The notes under the pieces: generated by a model
Told to the model about the DNA's origin: nothing
Databases searched by the model: none
Seen by the model: only the letters and a program-made list of their open reading frames with translations
Made by a program: the position numbers and the translations under genes
Shown here: positions 1 through 6,353 of the stretch, piece by piece
How the letters are laid out: the number at the start of each line of letters is the position of its first letter
Position numbering within the stretch: position 1 is the first letter of the stretch
Source: Acetobacteraceae bacterium
Lineage (GTDB): Bacteria > Pseudomonadota > Alphaproteobacteria > Acetobacterales > Acetobacteraceae
Direction of reading: 5' to 3'
Length of the DNA: 6,353 bases
NCBI GenBank assembly: GCA_030039695.1
Contig: JASHVB010000335.1
Span: 1 to 6,353, forward strand

Positions 1-78
1 CCATTCTTCATCGGTCAGGTCACTCTCGTAGCGCAGCCCGCTGCGGTCGTAGCGGGCGCGGTTCTCCTTGGTCCACAC
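1..78 (-). CDS. IS5-family transposase, N-terminal fragment cut by window edge
   Basis: Reading the minus strand from a GTG at 76-78 gives 26 codons that run off the window start: VWTKENRARYDRSGLRYESD, then LTDEEW. The block WTKENR..YDRS.LRY.SDLTDEEW is the characteristic N-terminus of IS5-family (IS1031/IS427-like) DDE transposases, so the enzyme would cut and join insertion-sequence ends. The DDE catalytic residues lie outside the window, so I cannot tell whether the gene is complete. The GTG start is chosen because the family match begins at its first residue. The frame stays open a little further upstream without an obvious ribosome binding site. The element transcribes away from the rest of the window and marks the left side as accessory DNA. 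Confidence 0.8.
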   Translation of the reverse strand, partial: MWTKENRARYDRSGLRYESDLTDEEW

Positions 79-165
79 GGGACACCCCCGGATTGGCGAA
101 GGGGGATGAAAATGGTAACAGAATCAGCGAGTTCAAGGCTTGCTGCTAACCGATTCTAAAGACTC
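79..165. mobile_element. Probable outer end of the IS5-type element
   Basis: This stretch lies between the transposase start and the first plus-strand reading frame. It should contain the terminal inverted repeat of the insertion sequence. Read on the minus strand, the motif GAGTCTTTAGAATCGG (150-165) begins with GAG, as many IS5-group ends do. AGAATC (120-125) and GATTCT (152-157) form a short inverted pair. The partner end is outside the window, so neither the exact boundary nor a target duplication can be fixed. Confidence 0.3.
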
Positions 166-212
166 AATTTGTTGCCGGACGGACACTCAGGACGCTACCT
201 GACTAAGGCTGC

Positions 213-713
213 GTGCAACGCTCGGGCCGGTCGACCGCAACCATAGTAATAAGTGCGGATGTGCGGGAACAGTTGAAGTGCAGCATTTATATCGCTGTAT
301 TTGCGTACAACCCCCAAATCGGCCTGGTTTATGCTTCAGGGCCGACAATTCGTCTGGCCCTGGTAGGTGATCATGTTGCCGTGTCGGCTGTCTGTCTCGT
401 GCCATTACCTGACGGCGGGAGGATTCGAGCCGTTCGATATGATTACATTACAGAGTCAACTCGCCGCGCGCTGAATTTCGGAAGCGTCGTTGCAGGTGGC
501 AGAGCTGGGACCACCATGGCATGCCGCCTAGGCCCGCGCGGACGCGATGGCGGCGGCTATGTCAAACAGATTGTGATAATTGAAGATCCTACCTTTCTCT
601 GTATTAGCCGGATCGACCCGTGTGCTGATGTCATTGCGCGGAAGCCGCCATCAGAACTGCGGACTGAAACCAGCCGTCGGCAAACGATGAATCTCCCGTG
701 CACGAGGCCATAG
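213..713 (+). CDS. Hypothetical protein, unrecognised (166 codons)
   Basis: An open frame from a GTG start encodes 166 residues. I do not recognise a family. The first about 90 residues alternate hydrophobic and polar positions in a way that suggests beta strands (for example SIYIAVFAYN, then IRLALVGDHVAVSAVCLV, then GRIRAVRYDYI). The last 60 are richer in Arg, Cys and Pro and look less protein-like. Codon use is mixed, with many A- or T-ending codons, unlike the nnrD-mcd genes at the right of the window, which would fit acquired DNA. No convincing ribosome binding site precedes the GTG. The 3' part overlaps an antisense frame (631-828) that also looks coding, so at least one of the two is not a real intact gene. 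Confidence 0.35.
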   Translation: MQRSGRSTATIVISADVREQLKCSIYIAVFAYNPQIGLVYASGPTIRLALVGDHVAVSAVCLVPLPDGGRIRAVRYDYITESTRRALNFGSVVAGGRAGTTMACRLGPRGRDGGGYVKQIVIIEDPTFLCISRIDPCADVIARKPPSELRTETSRRQTMNLPCTRP

Positions 714-828
714 CTTTTGTGGTCAGCGCAAACACGATGAAGTCGCCGCACGAGTCATGGACGATCAGGTAGAGGTAAGCGTGAGTGCCAGCGGACTCCC
801 TGTAGCCAGTAAACCCGAGATGTAGGAG
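631..828 (-). pseudogene. Possible decayed coding fragment, antisense
   Basis: A stop-to-stop minus-strand frame of about 65 codons has no plausible start near its beginning. It includes the stretch GYRESAGTHAYLYLIVHDSC, followed by GDFIVFALTTKAMA, which has the composition of a folded alpha/beta protein. I cannot name a family. It covers the 3' third of the plus-strand frame at 213-713 and the otherwise empty stretch before hipA. It may be the remnant of a gene that once ran leftwards through this region. This rests on composition only. Confidence 0.22.
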
Positions 829-876
829 TCACCTCGTTCATCACATTTCTAGTGCGACACGCTACCGCTTGTCCGG

Positions 877-1764
877 ATGTCTTTCTGTTTGTCAATGAGC
901 GGGGCGAGCAGGGGAACTCTTGCACCCGCGGCAGTTGATCACGCGGTGGATTGGGTCGGCCTGATCGCAGCCAGGCGCAGCATTGACAGCTCGTTCGTCA
1001 GGGCGCTGGCCTTGACTGCGCGAAGAGAGAACTGCTTGTTGCTGGCCCGGGTTCTGGGCTTCGCCTCTTCGAACTCCTCGGTGCTTCGATTTAGCCACGA
1101 AACTTGCATTGTGGTCGAGCGATACGACCGGTTCCGGGATATGTCGAACAACGAGTATGTGCGCGTTCACCAGGAGGACATGTGCCAAGCACTCTCGGTG
1201 ATGCCTGCTCTCAAATGTCAGAGGTACGGCGGCCCCTCCATCAGGCACGTCGTCCGCCTGCTCCGAGAGAACTCGTCTGCTGCATTGGAAGACACGCGCC
1301 AATTCGTACGTGGTGTGGCATTGAACTTTATCATCTTAGGCACCGATGCGCACGCGAAGAACTTCTCGGTCATCATGGCACCCGGTCAGAGCCGAATCCA
1401 GGTTCGCTTGGCGCCCCTCTACGACGTCAACAGCTACTTGCCCTATACCGATGACAAACGAAGCGTCCGGATGTCGATGTCGGTGGGTAGCAAGTAGGAA
1501 TATGATGAAGTCATGCCCCGCCACTGGGAGCGTGAAGCCAGGAGTTGCGGCCTGCCGGTGGATCAGACCCTGGCGGATATTCCGGATATCATCGCGCGCT
1601 GCCCAGATGCCGCCGAAGATGTCGCCCGGCGGTGCAAGGAGAGCGGATTGTCCCACCCCGTCATTCGACAGCTCTCCACTCGCATCGCCGCGCGCTGCGC
1701 CCGGCTTATCCGCTTCTACGGCAAGGAGGCCGTCGCTGAGGCCCAAGAACGGCTGGCAGGGTGA
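877..1764 (+). pseudogene. hipA: HipA-type Ser/Thr kinase toxin remnant: N-terminus missing, in-frame TAG
   Basis: The two reading frames 877-1497 and 1513-1764 are in the same phase, separated only by a TAG at 1495-1497. Together they match the C-terminal kinase region of HipA. Residues 51-86 (REN..LLLARVLGF, then VVERYDRF), HQEDMCQAL (98-106), GGPS (118-121), the catalytic-loop motif GTDAHAKNFS (155-164, with D157 and N162) and APLYDV (179-184) are all recognisable. After the TAG comes EYDEVMPRHWEREAR, the expected continuation, so the stop is a nonsense mutation. HipA is normally about 400 residues or more. Here homology starts only near 1027, so the N-terminal domain and the nucleotide-binding P-loop region are gone, and the first 50 residues look unrelated. 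No hipB-like antitoxin gene is visible. HipA kinases phosphorylate a cellular target such as glutamyl-tRNA synthetase; this copy should be inactive. Confidence 0.85.
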
Positions 1765-2415
1765 GCAGAATGACAGGGGTGCGCTGGCGATGGTGGGTTT
1801 GCTTAGCGGCATACACGGTTGCGGCTATAGCAGCACCGCTCTGGCACGAAGGGTTCGATGCCACGAAGCTCGCGCCGTACGTGGCCCTTGCAGGGTGGCT
1901 TCAGGGCGTGCTCACGCCGGGTCTTCTATGATTTGCGGCTCTCTCATTCTTGGATCAGAGCAGGGCGCAGCTCCAAGCCAATACGATAGCTAACCGAGCC
2001 ATGTTTATCGACAATCTGAACAAGTTCACTGGCCACCTCAACTACCGGTGCGTCCAAGCTCTGACGGGGACGAGTCCATCCAGTGAGAAAGTCAACGCAG
2101 CCCATGGTGCGGCTGGTCTCAACGCCATGATTACGCAACTCAGGGGGGCAAGCCGAGCCTAGCAGCGATAGATCCGGCGCTAGATGTGCTGTCCCGCAAG
2201 GAGATATTTGCCTCCGAGTTCTATCGACAGCTGCGTGACGAGGTCAGCGAAATTGCAAAGATCGGAGACGGAGTAGGGCTATCGGGATTGCTAGACGGCC
2301 GGATCCTTGAGATACGCAGCATGATCGCGCAACACCCCCCACCTGACTACCCCGGGGGTCGATCGCGTTTCCTGACCTGCGTGCTGTGTGTGCGGCGATC
2401 CTAAAGCGTCCTTGA
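1761..2415 (+). pseudogene. Two-helix membrane protein gene linked to hipA, broken by TGA and G-run frameshifts
   Basis: A GTG at 1761 overlaps the hipA stop by four bases (GTGA); an in-frame ATG follows at 1770. The first 56 codons hold a hydrophobic helix (WWVCLAAYTVAAIAAPLW) and the start of a second (APYVALAGWLQGVLTPGLL), then TGA at 1929-1931. The same frame continues with FAALSFLDQSRAQLQANTIA, which completes the second helix and enters a polar helical domain. This suggests a Trp codon mutated to TGA. Near 2143-2148 (six Gs) the sensible reading moves back one base, giving GKPSLAAIDPALDVLSRKEI and EFYRQLRDEVSEIAKIGDGV. A second shift at the G run 2354-2358 is possible, because GSIAFPDLRAVCAAILKRP (stop 2413-2415) reads better than the Arg/Cys-rich in-frame tail ending at 2404. 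The repaired product would be about 215 residues with two N-terminal membrane helices. I do not recognise the family. The overlap implies it was translationally coupled to hipA. Confidence 0.6.
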
Positions 2416-2462
2416 GGCTGGCCGCGAAGATGTCCCTGGGGCCTCCATCGCGGCAAATGACG

Positions 2463-2502
2463 CCCTGTCCCTTTTGGCGACCCGCCAGCCCGGGGGACAG
2501 GG
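2463..2502. terminator. Nested palindrome after the hipA locus, possible terminator
   Basis: CCCTGTCCC (2463-2471) and GGGACAGGG (2494-2502) form a perfect 9-bp inverted repeat. Inside its 22-base loop, GGCG (2476-2479) can pair with CGCC (2483-2486). It lies about 50 bases past the end of the hipA-linked reading frame, a plausible place for transcription to stop. No T run follows on either strand, so a standard intrinsic terminator is not proven. A repeat or mobile-element end is the alternative. Confidence 0.4.
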
Positions 2503-2503
2503 T

Positions 2504-2888
2504 CTAGTTCTCTGCCGGGGGCCGGGGAGTGAATGCAAGCCAGGGTGCGGCTTTAACAATAACAACATCTGCCTTTAACCGATATTTTGAAGTCAATCCC
2601 GGAAGGGTGGAAGGGGTCGGCGTCGGCCATCTTGCTGCCGTTTTTGAGTTGCGTCGCGCCGCACCTCGCGTTTGATCGTTTGAACGAACACGAGCAACCG
2701 AACACAGCAGACTGGCAACAGCAGCGCCAACAATGTACAGCAGTATGACCATCACAGCGCCATAGTCGGATAGCAGCGCCTGGGGTGGACCTGTGGGGTA
2801 CGGCGCCAGTGGTGCTGCCCGCGGCCATGACGAACTGGCTGCCATCGTCCACCCCAACGCCGCCGGCCGTGCGGGTCAAGCCCCACAT
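2504..2888 (-). pseudogene. Possible decayed membrane-protein gene
   Basis: This fills most of an otherwise gene-poor stretch (2503-3029). On the minus strand, protein-like sequence jumps between two frames. From an ATG at 2886-2888 one frame reads MWGLTRTAGGVGVDDGSQFV. The other frame then supplies a single membrane helix, ALLSDYGAVMVILLYIVGAA followed by VASLLCSV. The first frame again looks natural near its end (NGSKMADADPFHPSGIDFKI). No single frame is convincing along its whole length. This pattern fits a gene broken by small insertions or deletions, but chance in GC-rich DNA is not excluded. No family is recognised. The plus strand here shows only a low-complexity frame running into the 3030 gene. 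Confidence 0.28.
2781..2856. repeat. Nested inverted repeat (76 bases)
   Basis: TGGGGTGGAC (2781-2790) and GTCCACCCCA (2847-2856) are perfect 10-bp inverted copies. Nested inside them, GCCAGT (2805-2810) pairs with ACTGGC (2834-2839). It sits where the minus-strand protein-like sequence appears to change frame. Function unknown: it could be a small repeat element, a transcript hairpin or chance. Confidence 0.4.
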
Positions 2889-2997
2889 AGCGGCCCGTCA
2901 GGACCACCGCAGCGGCAACCGAGTCACCACCACGCTCAGGTCAGGAGCAATTCCAGTTCGGCCGGCGCCGTGGTCTTTTCGCCACTGTGGTTTTGGG

Positions 2998-3030
2998 CTA
3001 GCAACGACCGTTGCGCTAGGGTTTTCCCTA
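2998..3030 (+). promoter_or_regulatory. Tandem hairpins abutting the start codon at 3030
   Basis: Two adjoining hairpins lie just before the ATG at 3030. The first pairs CTAGCAACG (2998-3006) with CGTTG-CG-CTAG (3009-3019), with two unpaired bases and a 2-base loop. The second is TAGGG (3017-3021), loop TTTT, CCCTA (3026-3030). They share the bases 3017-3019, so only one can form fully at a time. The AGGG at 3018-3021 is the only candidate ribosome binding site and lies inside the second stem. Folding would therefore hide the translation start. This is an inference from sequence; an operator for a DNA-binding protein is an alternative. Confidence 0.35.
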
Positions 3031-3437
3031 TGAATCGATCACATGCCAAAGTCATAGTAGAAAGAGTGCGACGCGGGCTAGAGCCTCCCGATGACATTAG
3101 GCAGATAATCGCAGCTTGGCAGACGACACAATCGTCTGGGTGGGCTCGACTGCCGCTGGCCGATGGTGGTGATCTTCCAGGCCTGGAGGTTGCCTTTCGC
3201 CATGAGCGTGCTTCTCAATTGATCGAGGCTGTTCGTCGAGGAAGATTGGAGGCAATCATACTGCAGGAAGGCGGGGTGATCGGGGCGATGGCGTTCGACG
3301 AGTACCGCATCACGCGGCCGCTATCTGACCAACAGTTCTTCGACGAACTGGATAGTTATAGATTCAGTACCTCAACTCTCGCTGCTGCTCTGCTTGCGCG
3401 GCGGCAAACAGGATGGATGCCGCGCCAATCAGGATGA
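3030..3437 (+). CDS. Hypothetical protein, 135 aa, unrecognised
   Basis: The frame from ATG 3030 encodes 135 residues beginning MNRSHAKVIVERVRRGLEPP. It has the balanced composition of a soluble alpha/beta protein: a basic N-terminal helix, a helical segment DDIRQIIAAWQ, a strand-like LEAIILQEGGVIGAMAF near residues 84-100, and an acidic turn DQQFFDELDSYRF. There are no membrane helices, signal peptide or metal-binding motifs. The frame is open upstream to 2793, but that extension is His/Pro/Ser-rich and reads as non-coding, so the ATG at 3030 is preferred. Weak ribosome binding AGGG lies about 8 bases ahead, inside a hairpin. It is the only clearly intact-looking gene in the accessory part besides the tRNA. 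I do not know its function. A REP-like hairpin begins three bases after its stop. Confidence 0.55.
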   Translation: MNRSHAKVIVERVRRGLEPPDDIRQIIAAWQTTQSSGWARLPLADGGDLPGLEVAFRHERASQLIEAVRRGRLEAIILQEGGVIGAMAFDEYRITRPLSDQQFFDELDSYRFSTSTLAAALLARRQTGWMPRQSG

Positions 3438-3439
3438 AT

Positions 3440-3496
3440 GACGCCGGGGGCGGCCGGAGGTTGGGCGTAGCCCAACCGTAGGCTGCCTCCGGCGTC
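3440..3496. repeat. REP-like palindromic repeat or terminator hairpin
   Basis: The outer arms GACGCCGG (3440-3447) and CCGGCGTC (3489-3496) pair perfectly. CCGGAGG (3454-3460) can alternatively pair with CCTCCGG (3486-3492). The core GGTTGGGC, loop GTA, GCCCAACC (3459-3477) is a perfect 8-bp stem. Cores of the GTTGGGC-loop-GCCCAAC kind recur as scattered intergenic repeats in many proteobacterial genomes. Lying directly after the 3030-3437 gene, it could also end or stabilise that transcript, although no T run follows. Confidence 0.6.
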
Positions 3497-3583
3497 GAAG
3501 CGGGTCCCCTGGGGGATCCACCTGCGACTCCGTGACGCGTGGCGGAATGCCGAGGTTCTCAACCGCCAAGAAGAGACCTCAGC

Positions 3584-3754
3584 GTGCCGGGACGACACAT
3601 CACTGATCAGCAGGCGAAGTTGTACATGAACCTCAGACTTCTCAAGTGTCCCGATCCGTTGAGGACCTTTATTATCCATCCGCAAACGTCCTGCGTCATC
3701 GGGACTCGATTACCTGACCCCCTTCCCCATGCTTCGGTGATTAGCCGAAGATAG
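3584..3754 (+). pseudogene. IS21-family transposase N-terminal remnant
   Basis: From GTG at 3584 the frame reads VPGRHITDQQAKLYMNLR. This closely resembles the start of one group of IS21-family transposases (IstA type), which begin MPGR..TDHQ..LYM..R. After about 18 residues the resemblance ends and the frame stops at 3752-3754 in unrelated sequence. The helix-turn-helix and catalytic core are absent. It is therefore only a scrap of a former insertion sequence. The rest of 3498-3756 shows no further gene. The match is short, so I hold it with moderate confidence. Confidence 0.4.
3732..3750 (-). terminator. Hairpin just downstream of tRNA-Thr
   Basis: CTTCGG (3732-3737) and CCGAAG (3745-3750) form a perfect 6-bp stem with a 7-base loop. 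It lies six bases beyond the CCA end of the minus-strand tRNA-Thr. The position suits transcription termination or 3' processing, but no T run follows on the minus strand. Confidence 0.35.
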
Positions 3755-3756
3755 GA

Positions 3757-3831
3757 TGGTGCCCCCGGTGGGATTCGAACTCACGGCCTACCGCTTACAA
3801 GGCGGTTGCTCTACCACTGAGCTACAGGGGC
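3757..3831 (-). tRNA. tRNA-Thr (anticodon UGU), complete
   Basis: The minus strand from 3831 to 3757 folds as a complete 75-nt tRNA including an encoded CCA (complement of 3757-3759) and discriminator A. The acceptor arm GCCCCTG pairs with CGGGGGC (one G-T pair). The D arm is GCTC with GAGC around AGTGGTA. The anticodon arm is ACCGC, loop CTTGTAA, GCGGT, and the T arm contains the canonical GTTCGAATC. The anticodon TGT (complement of 3797-3799) decodes ACA and, by wobble, other threonine codons. It begins only about 10 bases after the intron-like RNA segment and shares its strand. It is clearly different in sequence from the broken tRNA-Thr at 4288-4324, so it is not a simple duplicate. Confidence 0.95.
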
Positions 3832-3839
3832 TCTATCCA

Positions 3840-4287
3840 AGGTACTACGGAGTCTCCGTCGCCACCCTCTGACTATAAGGCATCCCAGGTGCCTTGTGGC
3901 GATCCCGTACTTGCGTCGAGAGTGGTTGGGATGCTGTAGGTGTGTCGTTCAAAGGTTTAACCTCTCTTTGGGGCTGCGTCCAGTTGATGGGTTGTCTCCC
4001 CCTTGCAAACCGAGGGAGGCACAACTGGAGGTTGGGCTTCAGTCCGATACCAACCTGTCGCGGTGGCTCACGCTCCCTTCTGACCTTCGCCAAATCCATG
4101 GTTCACCATGGCATCGTTACCTAGACGGGACTTCTCGAACACCGGACTGTATTCTCACACCGCCGTTACCGCCATGCTGCACTCCCCCGGTCCTACACAA
4201 GGCTCGGACAGGGGATAAGGTGGTTGGTTCACTTAGTTACCCATACTAAGACTCCGTAGCTTCCACTCTCGCGCCACGACGGCGCAC
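3840..4287 (-). mobile_element. Group II intron-like RNA, 5' portion only
   Basis: On the minus strand this segment starts GTGCGCC immediately after a tRNA anticodon loop; GUGYG is the conserved 5' end of group II introns. GCGCC (4271-4275) pairs with GGCGC (4281-4285), forming a first hairpin. Other perfect stems follow: CTTAGT (4232-4237) with ACTAAG (4245-4250), CCATGG (4096-4101) with CCATGG (4106-4111), AGGTTGG (4029-4035) with CCAACCT (4050-4056), and CCAGTTG (3980-3986) with CAACTGG (4022-4028). CTACGGAGTC (3845-3854) and GACTCCGTAG (4250-4259) could close the whole RNA. I see no domain V hairpin, no 3' splice end and no reverse transcriptase, so it resembles domains I to IV of an intron truncated before the maturase gene. 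A group I intron or another structured RNA is possible. No protein gene is supported within it. Confidence 0.5.
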
Positions 4288-4324
4288 TTACAAAACCGCT
4301 ACACTACCGCTGTGCTAACCCGGC
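4288..4324 (-). pseudogene. 5' half of a second tRNA-Thr(UGU), split in the anticodon loop
   Basis: The 37 bases read on the minus strand correspond exactly to tRNA positions 1 to 38: acceptor strand GCCGGGT, linker TA, D arm GCAC and GTGT around AGCGGTA, base 26 A, anticodon 5' stem GCGGT, loop TTTGTAA with anticodon TGT. The sequence then stops being tRNA. An expected 3' exon (ACCGC, T arm, ACCCGGC acceptor strand) is not found in the window. The break falls at the 3' edge of the anticodon loop, a classic place for introns in tRNA genes, and is followed at once by GTGCG. It lies 103 bases after the malonyl-CoA decarboxylase stop, on the same strand. Confidence 0.65.
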
Positions 4325-4357
4325 CCAGTCCGACCCTGTACCACAAACTCACCGCCG

Positions 4358-4369
4358 CGACGATCGTCG
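4358..4369. repeat. Palindrome CGACGATCGTCG upstream of the split tRNA
   Basis: A perfect 12-bp palindrome lies in the 103-base gap between the malonyl-CoA decarboxylase stop and the split tRNA-Thr. It could be a protein-binding site or chance in GC-rich DNA. No clear promoter or terminator is otherwise visible in the gap. Confidence 0.25.
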
Positions 4370-4427
4370 GCAGGAGATTGGTTCGCCGCTGTACGGCGCG
4401 CAACGACACCCAGGCGCTGGCGGCCGC

Positions 4428-5822
4428 TCAGCCCCATCCGCGCGCCAGCTTGCGCACCGCGGTGGACGCGTTGCGCTTCCCCTCGCCGGCGTAATCCTCG
4501 TGCCAGTCTTCGATTTTCGCCGGGTCGTACAGGTAGTTGACCATCAGCGTGGCGCTCTCCTTCGCGCCTTTCTCTGACACGTCGCCGAGCATGTTCAGGC
4601 GTTCCACCCGCGCACCGTTCGACAAATGGAAATGCGCTACCGGATCGCGCGCTCGCTTCGAGTTGCCGCGCGCCGACTCGATAAGCAGGTAGCGCGCAGC
4701 CAGGCGCACCAGTACCGGCTCCGCCGTCTTGTGCAGTCCGACTTCGCGCCACCAGCCGCGTTTCGCAAGGATTCCAGCCAGCGCCCGCGGTCCGGTCGGT
4801 GCCGGCATTGCGGAGATCAGGCTCGTCGCCTCCTCATCCGACAACAGTCCTGGTGGGCTCGCCGCCAGGGTCTCGTCCAGCCATTTACGGAAGCCCGGCA
4901 ACGGTGACAGCGTGGCAAACGCACGAAGATTGCGGAACTCGGCGGACAGCAGTTCGACCACACGCTTAATCAGAAAATTGCCGAAGCTGATGCCGGACAG
5001 CCCCTGCTGGCAATTGCTGATCGAGTAGAAGATCGCAGTGTCCGCCTCGCGTGGGTCCTGCAAGGGCGCCTTTTCGTCCAGCAGACTCTGCACGCTGCCC
5101 GCGAGACCTTTCACCAGGGCCACTTCGACGAAGATCAGCGGCTCTCCCGGCATGCGCGGATGGAAGAACGCGTAGCATCGGCGATCCGAGTCCAGACGGT
5201 TCTTCATATCGCGCCAAGAGCGGATCTCGTGGACCGCCTCGTACTGCACTAACTTCTCCAGCAGCGCCGCGGGCGAGTTCCAATCGATCCGCGCCAGCTC
5301 CAGGAAGCCGATATCGAACCAAGCCGCGAGCAATCCGCGCAGATCGGCTTCCAGCGCCGCCAACAGCTTGTCGTGATCGCGGGTCTTCAGGATGAAGCCG
5401 CGCAGATCGACCAGGAATTTCGGCCCCTCCGGCAGCGTGGTGAACTGCATCAGCAGCTTCAGTCGCGGCGGTTCCAGCGCATGCCGAAGCGCCGCCTTCG
5501 CTGTCGCGCGCTCTGCCGGATCCGCCGCCTTCTGCACCGCCGTGTAGGCACGGGCGACCGCGTCCGGATCCGAGTCAAAGCTCGCGAGTGTCTGCAAGAA
5601 CTGCCGTCGCCCGGCGTCATCAAGCGACTGGTAGGTATCTGCCAGCTTGGCCGCCCGGTTGCGTGCCGAGACCTCGCCGCCGCGCCCGTTCAGGCAGGCA
5701 CGCATCTGCGCTTCCAGAGTTTCATCCTGGTCACCGGCGACGGACGCGGCCATGTCGCGCCAAGCGGTGGTGATCCGGCGAATCGCCCGATCCAGCAGGC
5801 CAGTGGCGGCAGCTTCGCTCAT
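4428..5822 (-). CDS. Malonyl-CoA decarboxylase
   Basis: The 464-residue product is a full-length malonyl-CoA decarboxylase, which converts malonyl-CoA to acetyl-CoA and CO2 in the cytoplasm. The N-terminal 200 residues form the usual helical domain. The C-terminal GNAT-like catalytic domain shows the family signatures: FFHPRMPGEPLIFVEVAL (219-236), FYSISNCQQGLSGISFGNFL (265-284), FATLSPLPGF (302-311), PVAHFHLSNGA (394-404) and VNYLYD (428-433). H399 in HFHLSNGA aligns with the catalytic histidine, and the SIS segment (267-269) holds the catalytic-serine region of the family. The ATG at 5820-5822 is supported by AAGGAG seven bases upstream. nnrD ends 25 bases upstream on the same strand, so the two are probably co-transcribed. 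No malonyl-CoA synthetase or malonate transporter gene is adjacent. Lesions like those in the left half are absent. Confidence 0.95.
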   Translation of the reverse strand: MSEAAATGLLDRAIRRITTAWRDMAASVAGDQDETLEAQMRACLNGRGGEVSARNRAAKLADTYQSLDDAGRRQFLQTLASFDSDPDAVARAYTAVQKAADPAERATAKAALRHALEPPRLKLLMQFTTLPEGPKFLVDLRGFILKTRDHDKLLAALEADLRGLLAAWFDIGFLELARIDWNSPAALLEKLVQYEAVHEIRSWRDMKNRLDSDRRCYAFFHPRMPGEPLIFVEVALVKGLAGSVQSLLDEKAPLQDPREADTAIFYSISNCQQGLSGISFGNFLIKRVVELLSAEFRNLRAFATLSPLPGFRKWLDETLAASPPGLLSDEEATSLISAMPAPTGPRALAGILAKRGWWREVGLHKTAEPVLVRLAARYLLIESARGNSKRARDPVAHFHLSNGARVERLNMLGDVSEKGAKESATLMVNYLYDPAKIEDWHEDYAGEGKRNASTAVRKLARGWG

Positions 5823-5847
5823 AACGGGGCTCCTTGACCGGCCAGGA

Positions 5848-6353
5848 TCATATCGCTGTGGCTTCCGTCGTCACCTCGCATGAGCGCGGGTGAGCTGCGC
5901 GGTACATGAGGACGCGTGGCAACGCCGCCAACAGGTCTTCCGTGACCATACCGATGCCGGCTACGTCAGCAGCGCGGCCGTGCAGGAAGGCTGCTGCTGC
6001 TGCTGCTTCCCAAGGCGGCATGCCTTGCGCCAGCAGGCCGGCAATCATGCCTGTCAGAACGTCGCCGGCGCCCGCCGTGGCTAGCCAGGGTGGCGCCGAG
6101 GCGTTGATCGCGGCGCATCCATTCGGCGCAGCGATGATGGTGTCGCTGCCCTTCAGCAACAGCACCGCGCCAGTGCGGGCCGCCGCGGTACGAGCCGCGG
6201 CGAGGCGATCATCTCCGACCGTGCCGAACACGCGAGCAAATTCGCCGGCATGTGGCGTCAGCACGGCAGCGCCGCGCAGTGCATCGGGGTCACCAGCACA
6301 GGCAGTCAGAGCGTCAGCGTCTACAACGACGCTGCGCCCGGCAGCCAGCAGTA
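5848..6353 (-). CDS. nnrD: ADP-dependent NAD(P)H-hydrate dehydratase, 3' part (5' end outside window)
   Basis: The frame enters from the right edge and gives 167 residues, ending at TGA 5848-5850. Family motifs are clear: VVVDADAL, LTPHAGEFARV, LLKGSDTII and TAGAGDVLTGMIAGLLAQGM (the Gly-Ala-Gly-Asp loop with its catalytic Asp, about 6050-6080), then HGRAAD. The enzyme dehydrates the damaged cofactors NADHX and NADPHX back to NADH and NADPH, using ADP as the phosphate source in bacteria. In many bacteria it is fused to an N-terminal NAD(P)HX epimerase domain. The start is not in view, so a fusion cannot be judged. An internal GTG at 6262-6264 is not the true start, because the conserved VVVDADAL lies upstream of it. 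The gene precedes malonyl-CoA decarboxylase by 25 bases, probably in one operon. Confidence 0.93.
   Translation of the reverse strand, partial: LLAAGRSVVVDADALTACAGDPDALRGAAVLTPHAGEFARVFGTVGDDRLAAARTAAARTGAVLLLKGSDTIIAAPNGCAAINASAPPWLATAGAGDVLTGMIAGLLAQGMPPWEAAAAAAFLHGRAADVAGIGMVTEDLLAALPRVLMYRAAHPRSCEVTTEATAI

Follow-up and report, generated by a model that had tools for sequence, protein, structure and literature searches.

Results

Organization of the locus

The window, by which we denote the whole 6,353-nucleotide stretch analyzed (positions 1 to 6,353 of contig JASHVB010000335.1 of an Acetobacteraceae bacterium, assembly GCA_030039695.1), contains on its minus strand the 5' half of a tRNA-Thr(UGU) gene, a segment resembling the 5' part of a group II intron, and a second, intact tRNA-Thr(UGU) gene (Table 1). 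The tRNA half consists of 37 bases that correspond to canonical tRNA positions 1-38 and include the anticodon TGT; the gene is cut after position 38, and the motif GTGCGCC starts at position 4287, directly after the cut. This confirms the junction between a tRNA-Thr half and GTGCGCC that an earlier note on this DNA had reported, and the half agrees in 36 of 37 bases with the tRNA-Thr(UGU) of alphaproteobacterial genomes. When the half was used as a pattern with one base left free and up to one mismatch, 11 of 385 genomes of one class matched, each with a single copy, and in all 11 the half runs on into an intact 3' half. A looser pattern, consisting of a tRNA 5' half followed by GTGYG, occurs once in the window and in none of 200 dinucleotide shuffles.

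Upstream of the tRNA half, on the same strand, lies a malonyl-CoA decarboxylase gene whose named close relatives belong to Acetobacteraceae and other Rhodospirillales. Three proteins (P0002-P0004) are 94-95% identical to this decarboxylase. An intact version of the locus was sought via this decarboxylase in sets of 70, 80, 80 and 289 Acetobacteraceae genomes, giving a best identity of 59% and no close genome. The G+C content is 59.1% at positions 1-3600, 56.8% in the intron part and 65.9% at positions 4325-6353. The lower-G+C part includes a fragment of a HipA C-terminal domain (877-1497, 110 bits) and looks like a decayed island. In a scan of positions 3600-4500 for promoters and terminators, nothing resembling a promoter scored above chance upstream of the half gene, and the single terminator-like site (4363-4349) is no more than chance would produce.

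Table 1. Features of the interrupted tRNA-Thr locus and its flank (positions in the window)
Feature	Position	Strand	Basis or remark
Malonyl-CoA decarboxylase gene, chromosomal context	4428..5822	-	Pfam MCD, 345 bits
5' half of native tRNA-Thr(UGU), 5' exon	4288..4324	-	36 of 37 bases as in alphaproteobacterial tRNA-Thr(UGU)
Group II intron 5' part (domains I-III), start GTGCGCC	3832..4287	-	Profile of nine other introns
EBS1 candidate, hairpin loop	4001..4008	-	Pairs with the last eight exon bases (anticodon loop)
Intact carried tRNA-Thr(UGU), encoded CCA, right after domain III	3757..3831	-	ARAGORN; Rfam tRNA, 74 bits
Candidate start of domain IV, downstream of the carried tRNA (GGGGAAGGGG..CAGG stretch)	3713..3736	-	Weak resemblance in an alignment read by eye

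A group II intron 5' part begins at the tRNA junction

The earlier note had suggested searching the region with covariance models of both group I and group II introns. In Rfam searches, nothing in the window apart from the intact tRNA scored above threshold, leaving the intron part unrecognized, and no match to the group I catalytic core (Intron_gpI) was obtained at E ≤1 over the whole window or at E ≤10 over positions 3700-4400. When the intron part was compared by BLASTN with plasmids, phages and E. coli genomes, the only matches were short ones to the tRNA half (3 and 1 records), or there were none. Because of the Rfam result, we built our own profiles from the aligned 5' parts of other introns, with the window left out, and calculated E values over the window plus 300 dinucleotide shuffles. 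The profile of nine introns, comprising three in tRNA sites of a kind beyond doubt (L008, L013 and L015, described below), L010, L078 and four at other sites, matches positions 4287-3826 over profile positions 1-435 (29.9 bits, E 5.3e-8), compared to a best shuffle score of 1.7 bits, and the mean alignment accuracy of the match is 0.66. A profile of six introns matches positions 4287-3839 (17.9 bits, E 2.5e-4; best shuffle 2.4 bits). The nine-intron match starts with the first position of the profile, precisely where the tRNA half ends. Since intact relatives score 68-311 bits (most introns with a located start), the window intron is either distant or decayed. The segment thus combines a GTGYG 5' end at the exon junction, conserved domain I-III sequence and a candidate EBS1 in domain I that can pair with the end of the exon, and it probably extends into the start of domain IV.

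The earlier note had also recommended looking for domain V and the matching tRNA 3' half, and a search within the window located neither: the best score of a domain V profile was 3.0 bits, compared to up to 12.8 bits in shuffles, and the best score for the tRNA 3' half was 20, compared to a shuffle mean of 21.2. A reverse transcriptase-maturase was likewise not found in the window (best tblastn E 0.086, with scattered matches), which speaks for truncation, as many truncated introns lack this protein. The simplest reading is that the window copy is a truncated or widely split intron in which the carried tRNA has been left in charge.

One way in which the intron could be split is into two pieces, with the break in domain IV: the window would hold the 5' piece of this bipartite group II intron, domains V-VI and the tRNA 3' half would be located elsewhere, and the two transcripts would be joined by trans-splicing. 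Trans-spliced organellar group II introns are broken in domain IV, which is also where homology ends in the window, and a relative described below has been spread out by inserts, so such introns can be dispersed. Yet no domain V, 3' half or intron protein lies within the window, and the carried tRNA would make trans-splicing needless, so we consider a split tRNA gene unlikely.

Related introns occupy the same position in other tRNA genes

A pattern scan of one genome per species for 84,980 species identified eight loci, of which two were kept; the pattern fits a single D-loop class, so other tRNAs would escape it. The two, L008 from Pseudomonas fragi F1801 and L010 from Psychrobacter sp. FME6, interrupt tRNA-Ile(CAU) genes; both are group II introns that possess a domain V and encode proteins of 621 and 625 amino acids with RVT_1, Intron_maturas2 and AI2M-like HNH domains. 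Bacterial group II introns with such LtrA-type proteins would probably fall in the class called 'mitochondrial-like'. Among 598 plasmid records matching the L008 protein by tblastn, the best four were from Cupriavidus (L012), Pseudomonas FeN3W (L013), P. silesiensis (L015) and Microvirga (L014; L078 when widened); 53 plasmid records matched the L013 protein, and 11 of all these records were examined. The genes broken are tRNA-Leu(UAA) in L013, tRNA-Leu(UAG) in L015 and tRNA-Ile(CAU) in L078. For all five tRNA-site relatives (L008, L010, L013, L015 and L078), the joined exons read as tRNAs in ARAGORN and the cut lies between tRNA positions 38 and 39. ARAGORN labels the joined-exon tRNAs with a CAU anticodon as Met; C4-G69/C5-G68 acceptor pairs mark an Ile2 tRNA, and by this rule we take them to be Ile2 from their acceptor stems.

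Intron lengths in L008, L010, L013 and L015 are 2611, 2566, 2566 and 2613 bases, respectively, and each of these four contains a domain V and a reverse transcriptase-maturase; a domain V is also present in L012. The L078 intron (1279-9120, on a Microvirga lotononidis plasmid) spans 7842 bases because the protein gene carries an insert of about 2.85 kb and a second group II intron lies in domain V. Among 24 intron proteins placed in a tree, those of the five tRNA-site introns group with L012 and L043 in one clade (support 100). The L012 intron (start 1972), on plasmid p1 of Cupriavidus necator C39, sits in a HEARO RNA (RF02033; 1848-2000), and although this match of 52.8 bits is below the curated cut-off of 83, it points to another structured RNA as a target. 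In L043 (2104-5875), a viral-contig record, the intron interrupts a gene whose two parts we read as TnpB-like. Since both belong to the clade, the tRNA-site lineage also uses other sites.

Beyond the query genome, the intron protein turned up in one of 397 other genomes of the phylum (L018, 39% identical, no tRNA found), and it was detected neither elsewhere in the genus of P. fragi (398 genomes with the query) nor in the family of Psychrobacter (249 with the query). Six phage records match the L013 protein. For IMG/VR, one of two pattern scans gave no match and the other an unrelated tRNA cluster, a scan with one protein gave no match, and a scan with four proteins gave 16 loci, none with a tRNA gene.

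The remaining pattern-scan loci were dropped. L004 is an archaeal tRNA with a short insert. In three gammaproteobacterial loci, L005 (3353-3388), L007 (898-933) and L009 (1783-1818), the latter two named Alteromonas, a tRNA-Phe 5' half precedes an intact tRNA-Phe with no intron match in between. In L006 (3392-3426), from a Chloroflexi MAG, a tRNA-Thr(CGU) 5' half ends at this same position and GTGCGCG comes next; the locus shows neither an intact tRNA nor a group II match. Finally, L011 (448-482) has a tRNA 5' half with a fitting 3' half about 0.6 kb further on, on a plastid-like contig titled Trichormus MAG; given its Rfam match to a plastid intron, this is probably a misbinned chloroplast contig.

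EBS1 covaries with the anticodon loop

In the window, the best-scoring site of the intron part is an EBS1 candidate at intron base 280, which forms eight consecutive pairs with the exon, three of which are G-U. Its location is homologous to that of EBS1 in the relatives (intron bases 270-303). A pairing of this length arose by chance in 164 of 20000 draws at the homologous place and in 1390 of 5000 shuffles when any site in the intron part was allowed. In a six-by-six matrix of introns and exons, every EBS1 pairs at 7/7 positions with its own exon, and full cross-pairing is limited to the two Ile introns with each other and to the Ile introns with the Thr exon. When six distinct exon-EBS1 rows are compared, each of the seven pairs varies on the exon side as well as on the EBS1 side, and 97.6% of cells pair, values to be read in light of the fact that the sites were selected for pairing and that those of L010 and L015 were set to the homologous place despite a higher-scoring site elsewhere. 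The covariation score was reached by none of 500 shuffles, and alignments slid out of register were at most 52.8% paired. L021 and the inner intron of L078 were omitted from the matrix and the pair count; the best L021 site lies off the homologous place, and its second best, at 288, has six pairs. Because EBS1 reads the anticodon loop, introns of this type are directed at particular anticodons.

Overall, the proposal in the earlier note that a group II-like element had inserted into a bacterial tRNA-Thr gene is supported by the profile match that starts at the junction, by the pairing of the EBS1 candidate with the anticodon loop, and by five relatives that occupy this tRNA position and have exons that together form tRNAs. 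What that note overlooked is the most unusual feature of the locus, the intact tRNA carried within the intron.

Most of the introns carry an intact tRNA with the anticodon of the broken gene

The carried tRNA-Thr(UGU) of the window lies 456 bases inside the intron, and its 5' half shares only 25 of 37 bases with that of the broken gene. It resembles tRNA-Thr genes of an Acetobacter plasmid (91% identity over 93% of the length) and of Streptomyces phage BRock (88% over 99%). Intact tRNAs are likewise carried by L008 (CAU), L013 (Leu-UAA), L015 (Leu-UAG) and L078 (CAU), and the Psychrobacter intron (L010) has no tRNA gene inside. Thus, with the window included, five of six tRNA-site introns carry a tRNA, and in 5/5 the anticodon is that of the broken gene. 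Full-length identity between carried and broken tRNAs is 71.4% in L008, 70.6% in L013 and 82.4% in L015, and in L078 the 5' halves agree at 31 of 38 bases; the carried tRNAs are thus not recent copies of the genes that were broken. The carried gene directly follows domain III in the window, L008 and L013 (offsets 456, 439 and 434, respectively) and lies between the protein gene and domain V in L015 and L078, and these two places within domain IV suggest that tRNAs were captured at least twice. The carried CAU tRNA of L078 is without the C4-G69/C5-G68 pairs expected of Ile2, so it might be a Met tRNA and not replace the broken gene.

We compared these introns with 24 control loci that encode related intron proteins (sixteen viral and six further plasmid loci, L012 and L021), none of which contains a tRNA gene; L018, found later, is also without one. 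Inspection by eye revealed no tRNA half before the intron start in any of the 10 located starts among 25 control loci, L018 included. Fisher's test of 5/6 against 0/24 gives 4e-5, a value that serves as a guide only, given the kinship among the loci and the fact that the tRNA site itself led to L008 and L010. This distribution bears on the idea that a tRNA inside such an intron is a passenger, acquired by chance (for example, from plasmid or phage tRNA arrays) and of no help to the intron. Such acquisition would fit the similarity of the window's carried gene to plasmid and phage tRNA-Thr genes, the Psychrobacter intron that carries none, and the setting of L015, whose interrupted tRNA-Leu(UAG) is surrounded by nine intact tRNA genes on a P. 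silesiensis megaplasmid (L074, 13554-18997). However, chance acquisition accounts poorly for an anticodon match in every carrier, covering four anticodons by gene (Thr-UGU, Ile-CAU, Leu-UAA and Leu-UAG), or for the lack of tRNA genes at the control loci, and we judge it improbable.

The divergence of the two window tRNAs also bears on a second alternative, in which a genomic island inserted at tRNA-Thr left a half gene and an intact gene behind and no intron was ever involved. The lower G+C content of positions 1-3600 would agree with such an island, and the three loci with a tRNA-Phe half beside an intact tRNA-Phe illustrate the arrangement. In those loci, however, the half and the intact gene look alike, unlike the pair in the window, and the stretch between the window's two genes fits the group II profile from the first base past the tRNA half, making an integration remnant very improbable.

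Two draft genomes were searched for further Ile2-type genes. With two patterns, which otherwise gave Met-type genes, other tRNAs and non-tRNA matches in both drafts, the only Ile2-type genes found in P. fragi were the broken one and the carried one, and the only one found in Psychrobacter was the interrupted one, although drafts may miss genes. Psychrobacter would then need splicing to read AUA, so splicing from the site between positions 38 and 39 probably works, as far as a draft sequence can indicate. Since L010 has neither a carried tRNA nor, seemingly, another Ile2 gene, splicing alone can suffice.

Discussion

Our preferred reading, to which we assign a probability of roughly 70%, is that tRNA-Thr(UGU) in the window is interrupted by a group II intron, of which the 5' part with domains I-III is present, and that the carried tRNA frees the codon from dependence on splicing and has probably taken over. 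Takeover by the carried tRNA from the host gene is probable because the intron protein, domain V and the 3' exon are gone or lie beyond the contig.

The anatomy of the tRNA-site introns, their insertion site, their EBS1 pairing and their repeated carriage of a matching tRNA are established by the comparisons above and suggest the following course of events. After a group II intron had entered the native gene for tRNA-Thr(UGU) at the 38/39 site, the promoter of the broken gene would transcribe the tRNA half, the intron and the carried tRNA as one precursor. The usual tRNA enzymes could then free the carried tRNA from domain IV of this precursor, and an enzyme cutting at this tRNA would split the intron RNA in domain IV. 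The codon would stay readable when splicing is poor or lost, such that the insertion would compensate for itself. Release from a precursor, rescue of the codon and eventual takeover are thus the steps that the gene arrangement suggests. In a broader form, which we regard as an evenly balanced proposal, the intron lineage homes to anticodon loops via EBS1 and carries a divergent tRNA of the same anticodon as an antidote to its own insertion; at the Acetobacteraceae locus, this antidote would have lasted longer than the intron and taken the place of the cell's tRNA-Thr(UGU).

Several known systems share part of this organization. Integrative elements enter tRNA genes and restore the gene with a carried tRNA end, and in both cases the intruder brings what it breaks; however, their end is restored by recombination, whereas here a complete, divergent tRNA gene lies inside a ribozyme. 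LtrA-type bacterial group II introns have in common with L008 and L010 the GTGCGCC start, EBS1-exon pairing, domain V and the protein domains, and they differ in that the introns described here are inserted at the anticodon loop between positions 38 and 39 and contain an intact tRNA in domain IV. A 2015 review (PMC4424553) describes most bacterial group II introns as lying outside housekeeping genes, with some exceptions within, whereas the introns described here enter tRNA genes at a constant position with a guide that pairs with the anticodon. The same review also names chloroplast cases in tRNA genes, with trnK and MatK as an example (PMC4424553). These are likewise group II introns in an essential tRNA gene but are organellar. 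To our knowledge, no chloroplast tRNA-gene intron of this group carries a tRNA with the same anticodon. Group I introns occur in bacterial tRNA genes, including Leu(UAA) (PMC3984707, PMC4853749); they share the location in a tRNA gene but are a different ribozyme, of which Rfam found none in the window. Among titles and the beginnings of abstracts, in a collection with few subscription journals, we found no prior description of bacterial tRNA-gene group II introns with carried tRNAs.

If our reading is correct, a core tRNA gene of this Acetobacteraceae bacterium has been exchanged by way of a mobile ribozyme, and carrying a replacement would be a way for such a ribozyme to live in a core RNA gene. 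The tRNA-site introns would also provide a route for the exchange of tRNA genes between replicons and a set of naturally anticodon-directed introns, and they are testable in culturable bacteria.
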